A stretch of DNA of 64,000 nt. Source: Nostoc sp. 106C (GTDB lineage: Bacteria > Cyanobacteriota > Cyanobacteriia > Cyanobacteriales > Nostocaceae). How positions within the stretch are numbered: the first letter of the stretch is position 1; each line of letters opens with the position of its first letter. Shown here one piece after another: positions 19,489 to 58,413 of the stretch. Location: positions 1-64,000 of the forward strand of contig NZ_MTAW01000129.1 of assembly GCF_002154725.1 (NCBI RefSeq), read 5' to 3'. The notes under the pieces were generated by a model, which searched no databases, was not told the DNA's origin, and was given only the letters and a program-made list of their open reading frames with translations. The position numbers and the translations under genes are program-made.

Positions 19489-20754
19489 ATGGTAGAAACA
19501 CAAGAAACGCAAATTTTAATAGTTGATGATAGTCCTACCAATGCAACTGCTTTATTAGGAATTTTACAACAAGCTGGTTTTAGCGTTGTGGTTACTAATA
19601 ATGGTGAATGTGCATTAAAGAAAGTCAAGGAAAACCCACCAAATTTGATTTTATTAGATGTAATGCTACCAGAGATGGATGGATTTGAAATATGTCTTCG
19701 TCTCAAAAAAATAAAAGAAGCTCAAGATATTCCAGTAATTTTCATGACTGCATTATCGAGGATAGAAGATAAAGTGAAAGGTTTGAGCATGGGTGCCGTA
19801 GATTATGTAACTAAACCCTTACAAAAAGAAGAAGTGATAGCGCGAGTTAATGTCCATTTAAAATTGAGTAATTTAAATAAGCAGTTAGAAGCACAAAGTC
19901 AAGAATTAAAAGTAACTTTAAAGCAACTCCAAGAATCTCAAATTCAGCTGATTCAAAATGAAAAAATGTCTACACTTGGCCAATTAGTTGCAGGAGTTGC
20001 TCACGAAATTAATAATCCGGTTGGAGCGATTAGCGCTAATTCTATTTATGCAACAAGTTATGTTAAAGACTTAGTTGAACATTTGCGTCTTTATCAACAA
20101 AAAGTTACTGATGAAGAGATCAGAACCCATGCAGAAGAGATAGAGTTGGAATTTTTGATTGAAGATTTGTCTAATATACTGACTACAATGCAAACAAGTG
20201 CCATCCGCATTAAAGATATTAGCGAATCATTTAGAATTTTCTCACGTAATGATACCGAAGATAAAGTTAACTTTGATATTCATGAAGGTTTGGAAAGCAC
20301 ATTATTAATTATCAAACATAGACTTAAAAAAACTGACAAGCATCCAGAAATTGAAGTCATAAAAGATTATGCAACCCTACCAATGATTAATTGTTTGCCT
20401 GGACCTTTAAATCAAGTATTTATGAATTTGTTAATAAATGCAGTAGATGCTTTAAGAGATTGTCATCACCATCATTTACTAAGTCAGAATAAACCTCTAA
20501 TTCATATAAAAACTACCTTAAATTATGAAAAAACACATGCCCTAATTTATATTAGTGATAATGGAATGGGAATTCCCGAAGAAATCAAAGAAAAGATTTT
20601 TGGGTATGCTTTTACAACAAAACCTGTTGGTAAAGGAACTGGTTTGGGATTAGCTATCGCCCGCCAAATAATTATTGAAAAGCATGGTGGATCTTTAGAA
20701 GTTAATTCTTTACCAGGTAAAGGGGCAGAATTCATAATAAATCTTCCATTGTAA
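19489..20754 (+). CDS. response regulator-histidine kinase hybrid
   Basis: 421 residues. An N-terminal receiver domain (about 8-122; acid pair DD in IVDDSPT, phospho-acceptor D57 in LILLDVMLPEMDG, lysine in VTKPLQKEE) is joined by a coiled coil to a kinase core with phospho-acceptor H172 ([14 protein letters not shown]), NLLINAVDAL, SDNGMGIPEE and [11 protein letters not shown]. The whole protein is soluble. The receiver precedes the kinase, so phosphorylation of D57 may control the kinase. It is the first gene of a five-gene chemotaxis-type cluster and is 61 bases before cheW. The layout matches a second hybrid at 55017-56294. Confidence 0.92.
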   Translation: MVETQETQILIVDDSPTNATALLGILQQAGFSVVVTNNGECALKKVKENPPNLILLDVMLPEMDGFEICLRLKKIKEAQDIPVIFMTALSRIEDKVKGLSMGAVDYVTKPLQKEEVIARVNVHLKLSNLNKQLEAQSQELKVTLKQLQESQIQLIQNEKMSTLGQLVAGVAHEINNPVGAISANSIYATSYVKDLVEHLRLYQQKVTDEEIRTHAEEIELEFLIEDLSNILTTMQTSAIRIKDISESFRIFSRNDTEDKVNFDIHEGLESTLLIIKHRLKKTDKHPEIEVIKDYATLPMINCLPGPLNQVFMNLLINAVDALRDCHHHHLLSQNKPLIHIKTTLNYEKTHALIYISDNGMGIPEEIKEKIFGYAFTTKPVGKGTGLGLAIARQIIIEKHGGSLEVNSLPGKGAEFIINLPL

Positions 20755-52680: not shown

Positions 52681-54783
52681 TCAGTCTTCTGGCTCAAAAC
52701 AATGCTGATCAAAAATATGAAGGTAACTGTGTTTACTGGCTGTCTGCTGAGATTGTCGAATCGGAATTTCAATTACAAACTCGGCTCCTTGACCAGGTAT
52801 AGAATGGCACTGCAATGAGCCACCATGCTTCTCGGTGACAATCTGGTAGCTGATCGACATTCCCAATCCTGTCCCTTTACCAACTGGCTTAGTGGTAAAA
52901 AATGGATCGCACAATCGCTTTTGAACAGATTCCGGGATACCAGGACCGTTATCCAAAATCCGGATCTGTACATGGTCTGAACCTACCATCTGTGTACAAA
53001 TCCGAATTTCATTGGTCTTTTGCTCAATCTCCTGAAACCTGCGCAATTGGTCTGCTTCTTCGAGGGCATCAATTGCGTTGCTAATGATATTCATAAACGC
53101 TTGGTTGAGTTGTCCGGCGTAGCACTCAACTAACGGCAGGTTAGCATATTCCTTAACCACTTCAATTCCTGGATGATCTTGCTTGGCTTTCAACCGATTC
53201 TGTAAGATGATCAGCGTACTATCAATGCCCTCATGGATATTCACCGCTTTCATCTCGGCTTCGTCCATACGCGAGAAGTTCCGTAAAGAGAGGACAATCT
53301 TTTTAATTCGGTCTGCGCCAGATTCCATTGAACAGAGCAACTTGGGCAAATCTTCTACCAAAAATTCTAGGTCGATCTCCTCGCTTTTGACCTGGATTTC
53401 CGGTGCTGGGCTGGGATAATGCTGTTGATACAATTGCAGCAGTCCTAGCAGATGTTGAATATACTCATTGGCAGGCTTGAAGTTGGCATAGATAAAGTTG
53501 ACTGGGTTATTTATTTCATGGGCTACCCCAGCGACTAACTGCCCCAAACTAGACATTTTCTCATTCTGCACTAGCTGAGTCTGCGTTCGCTTCAGTTCAA
53601 GCAAGGTAGTTTCCAAATCAGTTGCTTTCTGCCGCAAAGCTTCTTGGGCTTGTTTACGAGCACTGATATCGCGAGCAATTTTAGAGGCACCGATGATTTT
53701 GCCTGTCGAATCTTTAACTGGAGAAATCGTCAGCGAAAGATCAATCATCATCCCATCTTTACGTTGGCGCACGGTTTCAAAGTGATCGACCCGTTCTCCT
53801 TGCCTGAGTTTGAGCAAAATTTGGGGTTCCTCATTAATGCGATCGCCAGGAACAAGCATTGCCATAGGTTGACCGATGACTTCTTGTGCTTTATATCCAA
53901 ACAGTGTTTCTGCCCCACGATTCCAGCTGACAATCACTCCGTCCAAGGTTTTGCTGATAATGGCATCATCCGAGGACTCGACAATTGCCGCTAGACGAAA
54001 CATAGCTTCTTGGGCTTGTTTGTGTTCTGTAATATCTATATGAACTCCAATCCATTCCCGAATACTGCTATCAAGATTCAATATTGGGATAGCTCGAACG
54101 CTGATGTGGCAATAGCCACCGTCATGGCGGCGTAAACGGTGTTCCACCTTGTACAAGGTTCGGCTTGCAACTGCTTGTGACCACACTTTTTCTGTGTGCG
54201 ACTGATCGTCTGGGTGAACCGCATTTAGCCAGCCCCAACCCTTTAGTTCCTCGAAGGTTTGTCCGGTATAGGCACTCCAAGCGGGCTGCTTGCTGACAAA
54301 CTCACCTTCAGCTTTGGTGTCCCAAATAATTTCAGATGTGGCTGTTATCAAGAAGCGGTAGCGTTCTTCGCTGTGGCGTAATGCCAATTCTGCCTGTTTG
54401 CGCTCTGTGACATCTTCAGCCACAAGCATCACCCCGTTCACAACCCCCGCGCTGCTGCACCACGGGCAAAGCGTCCACTGACGCCAGCCTGTTAAACCAT
54501 CAACCTGCTGAAATCTCTCCTCTACACACAATTCAACCGCTGCCATCAAACAGTACTGGTATGCCTCTGTCAATGGTTCACAAAACTGCCGAAATAACTC
54601 TTTGTGCGATCGCCCAATAATATCTTGTTCATCCAGCCCTAACTCACTCAACCATCGTTGGCTGGTCAGCAAATACTTCATTTCGCGGTCTACAATTGCT
54701 GCCGCAATTGGTAGGTTTTCTAAAAACGCACAGTAGAGATCATCTCGTTGGAAATCATTATTTATCAGAGAATTTTGGCTCAT
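52681..54783 (-). CDS. PAS-PAS-PAS sensor histidine kinase
   Basis: 700 residues, soluble. Three PAS/PAC domains (about 15-130, 138-258, 262-380; the third with the DDAIISKTLDGVIVSWNRGA signature), a coiled linker, phospho-acceptor H422 ([14 protein letters not shown]), the shared helical insert (LEFLVEDLPKLLCSMESGAD), and HATPase motifs NIISNAIDAL, LDNGPGIPES and GKGTGLGMSIS. The core is very similar to the kinases at 10937, 19489 and 55017. No receiver is attached. It is the last of three kinase genes on this strand. Signal unknown; PAS domains could bind haem or flavin, but no diagnostic residue is seen. Confidence 0.92.
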   Translation of the reverse strand: MSQNSLINNDFQRDDLYCAFLENLPIAAAIVDREMKYLLTSQRWLSELGLDEQDIIGRSHKELFRQFCEPLTEAYQYCLMAAVELCVEERFQQVDGLTGWRQWTLCPWCSSAGVVNGVMLVAEDVTERKQAELALRHSEERYRFLITATSEIIWDTKAEGEFVSKQPAWSAYTGQTFEELKGWGWLNAVHPDDQSHTEKVWSQAVASRTLYKVEHRLRRHDGGYCHISVRAIPILNLDSSIREWIGVHIDITEHKQAQEAMFRLAAIVESSDDAIISKTLDGVIVSWNRGAETLFGYKAQEVIGQPMAMLVPGDRINEEPQILLKLRQGERVDHFETVRQRKDGMMIDLSLTISPVKDSTGKIIGASKIARDISARKQAQEALRQKATDLETTLLELKRTQTQLVQNEKMSSLGQLVAGVAHEINNPVNFIYANFKPANEYIQHLLGLLQLYQQHYPSPAPEIQVKSEEIDLEFLVEDLPKLLCSMESGADRIKKIVLSLRNFSRMDEAEMKAVNIHEGIDSTLIILQNRLKAKQDHPGIEVVKEYANLPLVECYAGQLNQAFMNIISNAIDALEEADQLRRFQEIEQKTNEIRICTQMVGSDHVQIRILDNGPGIPESVQKRLCDPFFTTKPVGKGTGLGMSISYQIVTEKHGGSLQCHSIPGQGAEFVIEIPIRQSQQTASKHSYLHIFDQHCFEPED

Positions 54784-55016: not shown

Positions 55017-56294
55017 CTAGACTGTATTACTCACACTTGGAATTGCAATCTTAAACTCGGTTCCTATACCCGGCTGAGAATTTACTTCCATTGTGCCTTT
55101 GTGTTTTTCCACGACAATTTGATGAGCTATCGACAAGCCAAGCCCAGTACCCTTGCCAACTGGTTTCGTGGTAAACAAAGGCTCAAAAAGCCGTTGTTTA
55201 AGTCTCTCAGGAACACCAATTCCATTGTCAGCAATCCGAATTACAACCCAATGTTGAGAATTTATTTCTGTTGTAATTTTAATTTGAGGAATTTTATTGC
55301 TCATTTTGCCTTGGTTTATGGCTTCATCAAGGGCATCAATTGCATTAGCAATAATGTTTATAAATACTTGATTCATCTGACCTAAATAGCAGTTTACCTC
55401 TGGCAATGTTCCATATTTCTTAATCACTTCAATGCCAGGACGATCGCCATTACCCTTGAGGCGGTGTTGCAAAATCATTAATGTACTATCTAGCCCTTGG
55501 TGCAAATCCGCAGGTATTTTGGTATCACTATCCGAACGGCAGAAGGTACGGAGTGAAGTAGAAACTTGACGAATTCGTTCAGTTCCCAGTTTGAATGAGT
55601 CCAAAATTTTGACCAGATCTTGAAGAATGAATTCTAAATCCCAATCTTCAAGAGCAGCGGTAATTTTGGCTGTCGGGTTTGGATACTCTTGTTGATACAG
55701 TCGGAGAATTTCGCTTACTCCGGCAATATATTCCTCCAAAGGTGGAATATTGCTAGTGATAAAGTTGATGGGGTTGTTCATTTCATGGGCAATACCAGCG
55801 ATTAACTCTCCTAGTGTTGATAATTTCTCTTGCTGTACCAGTTGGACTTGGGCTTGTTGCAAAGCATCAGTGCGATCGCGCACTTGTTGTTCTAAAGATT
55901 CATTAAGTTGTTTAAGCCGTAAATGCACGCGGACTCTGGCAATAACTTCCTCCTGAGCAAATGGTTTGGGTATGTAGTCTACCGCACCCAGAGAAAATCC
56001 CTTAGTTTTACTATCTATATCCGCTAAAGCAGTGGTAAAAATAATCGGAATGTTCTGGGTAACAGGATTGGCTTTGAGACGACGACAGGTTTCAAATCCG
56101 TTAATACCTGGCATTTGTACATCCAGCAAAATTAACTCTGGTTGATTGCGTTCGGCTTGAGCGATCGCACTTTCGCCATCGATTGCAACACGGAAACGCA
56201 ACCCCTCACCCGTGAGTGCTTCGGACAGGACAGACAAATTGGTGGGATTATCATCGACAATCAAAATAAATCCGTTATTTGAAATCTTGGTCAT
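55017..56294 (-). CDS. response regulator-histidine kinase hybrid
   Basis: 425 residues. Receiver at 8-125 (ILIVDDNPTNLSVL, phospho-acceptor D58 in LILLDVQMPGINGFETC, lysine in YIPKPFAQEE), a coiled coil, then a kinase core with H175-region motif IAGIAHEMNNPINF, NIIANAIDAL, ADNGIGVPER and [11 protein letters not shown]. Same layout as the hybrid at 19489-20754. It begins 31 bases after the ethylene-receptor-like kinase stop codon, so the two are likely co-transcribed, and the receiver is a good candidate acceptor for that kinase (inference). Confidence 0.92.
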   Translation of the reverse strand: MTKISNNGFILIVDDNPTNLSVLSEALTGEGLRFRVAIDGESAIAQAERNQPELILLDVQMPGINGFETCRRLKANPVTQNIPIIFTTALADIDSKTKGFSLGAVDYIPKPFAQEEVIARVRVHLRLKQLNESLEQQVRDRTDALQQAQVQLVQQEKLSTLGELIAGIAHEMNNPINFITSNIPPLEEYIAGVSEILRLYQQEYPNPTAKITAALEDWDLEFILQDLVKILDSFKLGTERIRQVSTSLRTFCRSDSDTKIPADLHQGLDSTLMILQHRLKGNGDRPGIEVIKKYGTLPEVNCYLGQMNQVFINIIANAIDALDEAINQGKMSNKIPQIKITTEINSQHWVVIRIADNGIGVPERLKQRLFEPLFTTKPVGKGTGLGLSIAHQIVVEKHKGTMEVNSQPGIGTEFKIAIPSVSNTV

Positions 56295-56324: not shown

Positions 56325-58211
56325 TTAATTAATTTGTTGTTGAATAAAAGTTTCCAAACGTTTGAGTTGGAAGTTGCTAGCCAACTGGATGAGTTGTTGA
56401 GTAAAACCACTTAACTGCTCATCAGATTTAGAAAGTTGTTGAGCTATTTCTAAAATTTTTTGAATATCGCCGTCTTGTACCAGTTCCAATAATTGTTGTA
56501 GAACTTCCTGGGAAGGAGGAATTATATCAACTGAAAGGTTTGAGCTATTTACATCGGTTTTTTTGATTATGTTTGTCTTGTTTTCATACAACCATTCCAG
56601 TTGCAAAAATTGCCGCAGCAGTTCTAGCAACATTTCAGCTTCTATCGGCTTAGGGAGAAATGCATCTGCACCAACATCAATACTCTTGTATTGGTCAATT
56701 GCAAACACACTGGCTGACGAAGCGATAATAGCCATCTCCTTAAATTGGCCAGACTGACGTAAACTTTTAATAAACTCAAATCCATCCATCACAGGCATAA
56801 CTAAGTCAGTGATAATCAAGTCTGGTTTGTAGGTTTTTACCTGTTCCCATCCTTCTTGACCCTGACTAGCTTCTACAACAGTAAACCCCACTGGCTCTAG
56901 TAAATTGACAATCACCGAGCGGTTTTCCCATTTGTCATCCACAATCAAAATGGTGCGCCTTTGTCCTTGATAACCAATAATGCTTCCCTTCTCAACTACT
57001 CTAGAAACCCTTGCCCAGTCTTTAGATTCTGGCAATTCCACTTCAAACCAGAAAGTGCTACCTGCGCCAAACTGACTTTCTACTTGAATTTGACTACCCA
57101 TCAACGAAATAATTTTTTGGCTGATTGCTAGTCCTAAACCTGTACCTTCAGTTTGTCGTTTCTGACTTCCCACTTGCTCAAAAGGTAGAAATATTTTCTC
57201 GGCTTGCTCAGGGGTGATACCTGTGCCAGTATCTATTACTTCAAAGCGAATTTTATATGTAATTTGTTTATTGCCATTTGAGGCTTGATTAATAACTTTA
57301 ACCTTGAAGGTAACGCTGCCTTGATTAGTAAATTTGATTGCATTCCCAAGCAAGTTGAGCAATACTTGCCGCAAGCGTTTTTCATCAGCACGAATCCCTG
57401 TTGGTAAATCGGGGTCAAGTTGCAGATGAAATGCGATCACCTTTTGTTCGGCACGGATGCGACAAATTTCACTTACACTGTCTAGAAATGCAGGCAAGTA
57501 AAAATCAATTGGATTCAATTCCAACTTTCGGGCTTCAATTTTGGAGAGATCCAAGACATCATTAATCAAGGTTAATAAATGAGAACCACATTGGTAAATG
57601 ATGCTGATTCCTTTGCTACCTTTCTCACTTAAAGCTTCTGTGCGTTGGAGGATTTGTGTATAGCCAAGGATGCCATTGAGAGGAGTGCGTAATTCATGAC
57701 TCATATTGGCGAGAAATTCACTCTTGGCTTGGCTAGAGTTCTTCGCCACTTCCTCAGCAAGGCGTAACTCTTTCTCAATGCGTTTGCGCTCGACAATTTC
57801 ACTTATGAGTACTCGGTTGATAGCTTCTAATTGGGCAGGGCTGGGTAATGTCAAAGCTTGAGGCATGAGATAAATTAACGCAAATGCCGTATATATCGAA
57901 ATAATGGCAGTGAAAGCTTTCAAACCACCTGCTATCCAGTAATTGGGATGCCAAAGCGTCCAAATTTCCATCAAGTGCCCAGTACCACAAGCAATGATAA
58001 AAGCACCAAATAACAGAAAGACACCGTTAAAAGGAACGTCTTTGCGCTTAGAAATAAAGTAGATCAGAAGAAAGGGAATAGAATAATAAGCTAAGGCGAT
58101 CGTGGCATCAGAAATAATGTGGAGCCACACCAGCCCCGTTTTCCAGAGATAACAATGTCCGTGCGGGATAAAACTGTTTGAGTAGGAAGGATAATTAAAA
58201 AAAGCTAACAT
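56325..58211 (-). CDS. ethylene-receptor-like hybrid histidine kinase
   Basis: 628 residues from the ATG at 58211 (the open frame reaches a TTG at 58265). Three N-terminal helices at 24-118 match the ethylene-binding domain of plant ETR1: IISDATIALAYYSIPFLLIY, FGAFIIACGTGHLMEIWT. Residues equivalent to ETR1 Asp25, Cys65 and His69 are D35, C75 and H79, so the copper/ethylene site is complete. After a coiled coil come the HisKA domain with H172 (MSHELRTPLNG), HATPase (GTGITPEQ, GTGLGLAIS) and a receiver (ILIVDDKWENRSV, LIITDLVMPVMDG). The final 80 residues are helical. Unlike Synechocystis Slr1212 it has no PAS or GAF between. Membrane sensor, probable signal ethylene or a similar ligand. Confidence 0.93.
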   Translation of the reverse strand: MLAFFNYPSYSNSFIPHGHCYLWKTGLVWLHIISDATIALAYYSIPFLLIYFISKRKDVPFNGVFLLFGAFIIACGTGHLMEIWTLWHPNYWIAGGLKAFTAIISIYTAFALIYLMPQALTLPSPAQLEAINRVLISEIVERKRIEKELRLAEEVAKNSSQAKSEFLANMSHELRTPLNGILGYTQILQRTEALSEKGSKGISIIYQCGSHLLTLINDVLDLSKIEARKLELNPIDFYLPAFLDSVSEICRIRAEQKVIAFHLQLDPDLPTGIRADEKRLRQVLLNLLGNAIKFTNQGSVTFKVKVINQASNGNKQITYKIRFEVIDTGTGITPEQAEKIFLPFEQVGSQKRQTEGTGLGLAISQKIISLMGSQIQVESQFGAGSTFWFEVELPESKDWARVSRVVEKGSIIGYQGQRRTILIVDDKWENRSVIVNLLEPVGFTVVEASQGQEGWEQVKTYKPDLIITDLVMPVMDGFEFIKSLRQSGQFKEMAIIASSASVFAIDQYKSIDVGADAFLPKPIEAEMLLELLRQFLQLEWLYENKTNIIKKTDVNSSNLSVDIIPPSQEVLQQLLELVQDGDIQKILEIAQQLSKSDEQLSGFTQQLIQLASNFQLKRLETFIQQQIN

Positions 58212-58413
58212 AATACTAGAGGTGACTAAATTTGTGATAATTATCTGTAACCTCAGTATTCCCAAAAAGGTTTAGACTTTTAAGTTTCGATTACTTATTT
58301 TTATCTATTACTTGTGCCCAATTATACAAAAGATGTTGTTTAATTAATATTTATCTATTGATTAAAGTTAATGCATCCTTAAATCTTTCATCATTTCTAT
58401 TTGAAGATTTAAG

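Follow-up and report, generated by a model that had tools for sequence, protein, structure and literature searches.

The kinase gene and its neighbourhood

The window, i.e. the whole stretch of 64,000 nucleotides that was analysed, encodes on its minus strand a 628-residue hybrid histidine kinase (56325..58211), identified by its open reading frame, by Pfam and by its 12 orthologous loci, the own locus included. We place the start at the ATG at 58211. An alternative TTG at 58265 would give a longer reading frame; the ATG is preferred because the starts of the orthologues favour it.

From the N-terminus, the protein is formed by an ETR1_N domain of the ethylene-binding type (residues 27-122, 57846..58133, minus strand; Pfam E 4e-42, in agreement with the AlphaFold2 model and hydropathy), a HisKA domain (residues 162-227, 57531..57728), a HATPase_c domain (residues 276-394, 57030..57386) and a Response_reg receiver (residues 421-532, 56616..56951), all on the minus strand and located by Pfam and coordinates. 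The phospho-acceptor H172 is encoded at 57696-57698 and D469 of the receiver at 56805-56807. This is the domain order of the original prediction, and its numbering of C75 and H172 is correct by alignment and coordinates. The last 65 residues or so (562-628, 56328..56528, minus strand) have no Pfam match and form a helical region in the model. The same region is also found within many kinase matches from related genomes.

With 142.9 bits against a Pfam cut-off of 27, the ETR1_N match is much too strong to be fortuitous, and the same family search gave no ETR1_N match in 14 well-known control genomes. Pfam finds no GAF domain in the kinase, and the gap between ETR1_N and HisKA is only 39 residues. 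The kinase motifs (H172, N286, N290 and the G boxes) and the receiver residues D425, D426, D469 and K521 are identical in the window protein and in 10 intact orthologues; the interrupted copy in genome G005 was left out of this alignment. The protein thus has what defines a hybrid histidine kinase, i.e. HisKA, HATPase_c and a receiver with its catalytic residues.

Directly downstream, on the same strand, lies a gene of 425 codons (55017..56294) for a protein with a receiver (D58), a HisKA (H170) and a HATPase_c domain, supported by Pfam, by coordinates and by its presence at all 12 loci. Its HisKA match reaches 17.1 bits, below the Pfam cut-off of 26.9, and the expected phospho-acceptor H170 is present. 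The spacer between the two genes, previously given as 31 bases, measures 30 bp. Farther on, 52681..54783 (minus strand) encodes a PAS-HisKA-HATPase kinase of 700 residues, a mere neighbour that is found at this place in the own genome and in G006.

The predicted ethylene-binding site

The binding domain carries D35, Y42, I45, P46, I72, C75 and H79. By alignment and coordinates, D35 (58107..58109, minus strand) occupies the place of ETR1 D25, and the stretch from C75 to H79 (57975..57989, minus strand) holds the places of ETR1 C65 and H69, as had been claimed; the other four residues, which we take to complete the set of seven required in ETR1, are present as well. K98 is found at the place of ETR1 K91. 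In AtETR1, seven residues are required for ethylene binding (PMC6682694, PMC11819568; statements on published systems, here and below, refer to excerpts of the cited papers), and C65 and H69 are the copper site according to the literature.

All seven residues are unchanged in the 12 orthologues and in the five other ETR1_N genes of the own genome. The same holds for 16 of 20 additional ETR1_N loci in relatives; these 20 were selected for an open frame of 598-714 residues, so that the sample is not random. Changes occur in the remaining four, namely L148 (P to S), L149 (P to S and C to Y), L152 (five of the seven changed) and L154 (D to N).

The ligand of the window protein could be something other than ethylene. 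The three-helix domain would then bind copper or another small ligand, such as another olefin or a redox signal, and the kinase would sense a non-ethylene cue. Residue identity does not settle the physiological ligand, the residue set is partly lost at those four loci, and Synechocystis Slr1212/SynEtr1 senses light too, through another domain (PMC6682694). However, the full set is kept in every one of the orthologues, and two relatives from bacteria, SynEtr1 and AzoEtr1, bind ethylene according to published work, so we consider this alternative unlikely.

The position of H31, four residues ahead of the conserved D35, is an asparagine in five orthologues from the genus of the window (L050-L054) and a histidine in the other seven. 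Four of the asparagine-bearing orthologues, those included in the kinase tree, form a separate branch. The replacement is counted against the explanation that we prefer below.

According to the AlphaFold2 model, the transmembrane helices span residues 25-55, 61-81 and 89-120, and hydropathy agrees on three. D35, Y42, I45 and P46 are located in the first helix and I72, C75 and H79 in the second. The placement of D35, C75 and H79 bears out the proposed residue equivalence at the level of helices only. A single long helix, residues 125-191, contains H172, and therefore the transmembrane part is predicted to run into the kinase. The model was obtained from 14 sequences, of which only three besides the window protein have the binding domain, and it has a mean pLDDT of 77.5 and a pTM of 0.50. 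Ten-residue pLDDT means are 60-77 across residues 21-120, and residues 1-22 are below 50. Searched by sequence against solved structures, the binding domain gave a single, irrelevant match (E 1.9).

Orthologues of the kinase

We searched 58 genomes, i.e. eight of the genus (including the own genome, 8.66 Mb in 240 contigs), 26 others of the family and 24 others of the order. Orthologues, defined by a near full-length match with 70-100% identity, are present in 12 genomes, the own one included: all eight of the genus, four of the 26 other family members and none of the 24 others of the order. The best orthologue, in G006, is 94% identical. Among the matches listed, two more span most of the protein at lower identity, one in G024 (L144, 44%, with ETR1_N) and one in G029 (50%), a genome without any ETR1_N match; the remaining ones cover chiefly the kinase part. 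In a kinase tree of 25 rows with midpoint root, the 11 orthologues used group together with support 100/99.

Identity to the window protein was measured for ten orthologues and amounts to 85-100% in the binding domain and 69-96% in the receiver; in every one of the ten the binding domain is the closer of the two. For the orthologue L046, the kinase part is 88% and the binding domain 87% identical to the window protein, which is counted against the preferred explanation. The orthologue in G005 (L054) has an in-frame TAG at codon 184, just past the phospho-acceptor histidine. Because of this codon, which is also counted against the preferred explanation, the kinase gene may be dispensable in that genome, or the record may be wrong. 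Its partner gene has no internal stop among the matches listed.

The interrupted copy speaks for the idea that the domain is a relic, which would serve only as membrane anchor or dimeriser of the kinase and bind no ligand; a functional role of the domain is itself a prediction from sequence. The seven site residues are invariant across the 12 orthologues, though, and the binding domain is closer to that of the window than the receiver in all ten comparisons, both of which make a relic very improbable.

The kinase is followed by a conserved receiver-kinase gene

The co-directional receiver-kinase gene had been proposed as a candidate partner, and the orthologous loci support this well. At all 12 of them it lies directly downstream of the kinase on the same strand, at a distance of 29-259 bp and with 75-100% identity to the window copy. 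Copies of the seven other flanking genes recur in only two of the 12 loci, the own one and G006 (at least 45% identity, with cross-matches between kinase domains set aside; the contig of L051 is only about 7 kb long). The kinase gene at 52681 was also considered as a member of the unit and was rejected, as it is present at this place in only two of the 12 loci. Pfam finds no DNA-binding or enzymatic output domain in either gene of the pair, a point that is counted against the preferred explanation.

Similar pairs are present outside the orthologous group. In a scan of genome contigs, which is dominated by kinase-domain matches and in which only three of the 80 loci match the binding domain of the window protein (tblastn, E 1e-8), ten of the 12 best-matching loci (L055-L066), all cyanobacterial, have such a pair. 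Across all 80 loci, the same ten are the only ones with a partner match above 45% identity and 350 residues; six lower-ranked cyanobacterial loci (L068, L073, L076, L077, L089 and L105) have no partner at that cut-off, the contig of L077 ending inside the kinase. Five loci were chosen for having both genes; these are direct neighbours in L155-L158 and are separated by 6 kb in L159.

Like the window gene, the kinases of these cyanobacterial pairs have a kinase part, a receiver and a C-terminal region and are followed by a receiver-kinase gene, but their input domain is different. Pfam scans of eight of them show dCache_1, MASE1 or HAMP and no ETR1_N; for L158 and L055 the dCache match is under the cut-off and HAMP remains. 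The own genome has at least ten receiver-kinase matches, and a window-like kinase lies directly upstream of at least six (contigs C156, C95, C129, C126, C57 and C83). A second receiver-kinase of the partner type, 49% identical, is encoded within the window itself at 19489-20754 on the plus strand.

The locus therefore appears to be a two-gene kinase pair of a type common in cyanobacteria, here equipped with an ethylene-type input, one of several inputs, because similar genes also follow dCache, MASE1 and HAMP kinases. In G009 (L155, contig C20), a partner of the window type (74% identity, grouping 100/100) lies behind a dCache kinase; its position just outside the window group has support 89/75 and is not firm. 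The input at the window-type partner is thus ETR1_N in 12 loci and dCache in G009, and the exchange could have gone in either direction. In our reading, the receiver-kinase stays in place and the sensor kinase is what can be exchanged. As a tentative proposal, to which we give somewhat less than an even chance, the locus is the ethylene-input version of a swappable two-gene phosphorelay, where the receiver-kinase is a fixed relay that is kept when the sensor is exchanged. If so, filamentous cyanobacteria with several receptors would read ethylene by several separately wired routes at once. In the open literature searched on ethylene receptors, the titles and abstract beginnings listed mention nothing of this two-gene pairing, which is a weak negative.

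Alternatively, the two genes could be an inherited, co-expressed pair whose products exchange no phosphate. Similar pairs are widespread in cyanobacteria, so the adjacency may simply be inherited, and the second protein has a kinase domain of its own. However, the partner is adjacent at all 12 loci, while the other tested neighbours are found at only two, and we regard a pair that exchanges no phosphate as rather doubtful.

Other ETR1_N proteins in the genome and its relatives

The window gene is not the only ETR1_N gene of its genome, as there are six, and 45 of the 58 genomes have at least one. Besides the window protein, the own genome encodes a binding domain with a HisKA_3 kinase (L007), with a HisKA kinase (L008), with PAS domains and HisKA_2 (L009), with PAS, HisKA and a receiver (L010), and with several PAS domains, HisKA and two receivers (L011). 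Among the six, only the window protein runs from the binding domain through HisKA and HATPase_c to a receiver without PAS. Because it is the only PAS-free, direct make-up in its genome, it is a simple protein for probing how ethylene binding is passed to a kinase.

The same make-up, free of PAS and GAF, is found in two of 14 proteins scanned from relatives (L144 and L135), and in L061. A gene of the partner type was not seen after L144, after L135 (833 bases examined past it) or after L061, and these three loci of the same domain order are counted against the preferred explanation.

Some relatives join ETR1_N to other outputs, GGDEF in L147 and L149 and GGDEF-EAL in L152. Two of these proteins, L149 and L152, have altered binding-site residues.

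Comparison with known ethylene receptors

Like Arabidopsis ETR1, the window protein has the binding domain first, then the kinase and the receiver last, and it shares the seven binding residues. To this extent the suggestion that its domain order is closer to the plant receptor holds. However, the GAF domain of plant subfamily 1 receptors (PMC5285503, PMC6682694) is missing here, the window protein has an extra C-terminal helical region, and the same order also occurs in L144, L135 and L061. The domain order therefore does not support a closer relationship to plant ETR1, and we reject this reading. ETR1 also differs in acting through CTR1 and EIN2 at the endoplasmic reticulum (PMC7700396).

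Published bacterial receptors are SynEtr1, GeiEtr1/2 and AzoEtr1. SynEtr1 of Synechocystis (Slr1212, UirS) is likewise a cyanobacterial protein with an N-terminal ethylene-binding domain and a histidine kinase, but it has a phytochrome-like (cyanobacteriochrome) domain between them, which the window protein does not have. It putatively signals to the response regulator slr1213, whereas the window protein has its own receiver (PMC6682694, PMC7700396). Geitlerinema is another filamentous cyanobacterium with more than a single receptor gene, and its GeiEtr1 and GeiEtr2 have all seven residues. A GAF domain is present in GeiEtr1, which lacks a receiver, GeiEtr2 combines PAS/PAC/GAF with a receiver, and the window protein has a receiver without PAS or GAF (PMC6682694). 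Expressed in yeast, AzoEtr1 of Azospirillum binds ethylene, and its D35, C75, H79 and K98 are numbered exactly as in the window protein; its next gene is described as a 135-residue response regulator with no other output motif, in contrast to the receiver-kinase found here (PMC11819568). Published work on relatives reports that the N-terminal domain binds ethylene and that binding disappears upon mutation (PMC6682694, PMC11819568).

Judged by its sequence, the ethylene-receptor-like reading appears sound and is not new. The novelty implied in the original prediction is not borne out, as receptors of this kind are already well established in cyanobacteria and five more ETR1_N genes are present in the own genome. 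No new receptor class is added. The window protein is one more member, PAS- and GAF-free and with a fixed neighbour, and with it the known group gains a receptor that is well conserved and has a clear candidate partner. The downstream wiring of bacterial ethylene receptors has been studied in few bacteria, according to the excerpts of the literature surveyed.

Proposed mechanism

In the explanation that we prefer, and consider on balance probable, the protein is a membrane-bound sensor of the type known from cyanobacterial ethylene receptors, in which ethylene binding at a copper site would change the phosphorylation of H172, and the signal would be passed to D469 and from there to, or alongside, the partner. 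Judged by the identity of the residues, the three N-terminal helices would hold copper through C75 and H79 and bind ethylene. Binding would alter the continuous helix that connects the third transmembrane helix with the kinase dimer, and the phosphorylation of H172 would change as a result. The phosphate would then be transferred from H172 to D469 of the protein's own receiver.

The signal would continue to, or run alongside, the partner, whose D58 receiver would control its H170 kinase, and this kinase would forward it to a response regulator encoded elsewhere. Receiver-to-receiver signalling is a non-standard step, and our proposal of it between these two products is a guess. Both products may also converge on one phosphotransfer protein or regulator and share nothing but the output.

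A run of nine T in the paralogue L009

The paralogue L009 (3989-5920, own-genome contig C41) has no in-frame ATG, GTG or TTG ahead of its binding domain. In genes of this type an out-of-frame ATG lies 38 or 41 bases 5' of the conserved IPHGHC motif, with a run of exactly nine T (T9) in between. Of 192 genomes searched, 47 have a match, and we read one locus in each of 46 of them; a partial match in G193 was left out. A T9 run is present in 25 loci (L160-L169, L172, L173, L176, L179, L185, L187-L189, L196, L197, L199-L201, L203 and L205), and the ATG is out of frame by the same base in all 25. The run has another length in the other 21 loci (T4 to T8, and T10 in G168), and all 21 have an in-frame ATG or GTG. 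One T9 locus, L169, has an in-frame TTG at the IPHGHC motif itself. The G168 gene is split again farther on.

The T9 genes span six genera. In a tree of 30 loci they are found on both sides of the midpoint root, so that at least two changes are needed. Three of the 25 loci (G002, G007 and G158) are shorter variants with a frame of 515 residues.

This pattern suggests that a gene of the ethylene-receptor type undergoes programmed slippage during transcription or -1 frameshifting. From the reading frames, it is likely that the T9 receptor would be made only after slippage at the run, either by RNA polymerase or by the ribosome. As a rival explanation, the T9 genes may have been silenced; against this, no stop is present within the match in 24 of the 25 loci, the exception being a partial match in G073. 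The excerpts of two papers on frameshifting (PMC3711429, PMC5009743) do not mention ethylene.

The leaders 5' of the T9 run resemble those of the in-frame genes, with N-F-F before or at the run. Counting the one in L009, four runs of at least nine A or T are present in 132 kb of own-genome DNA.
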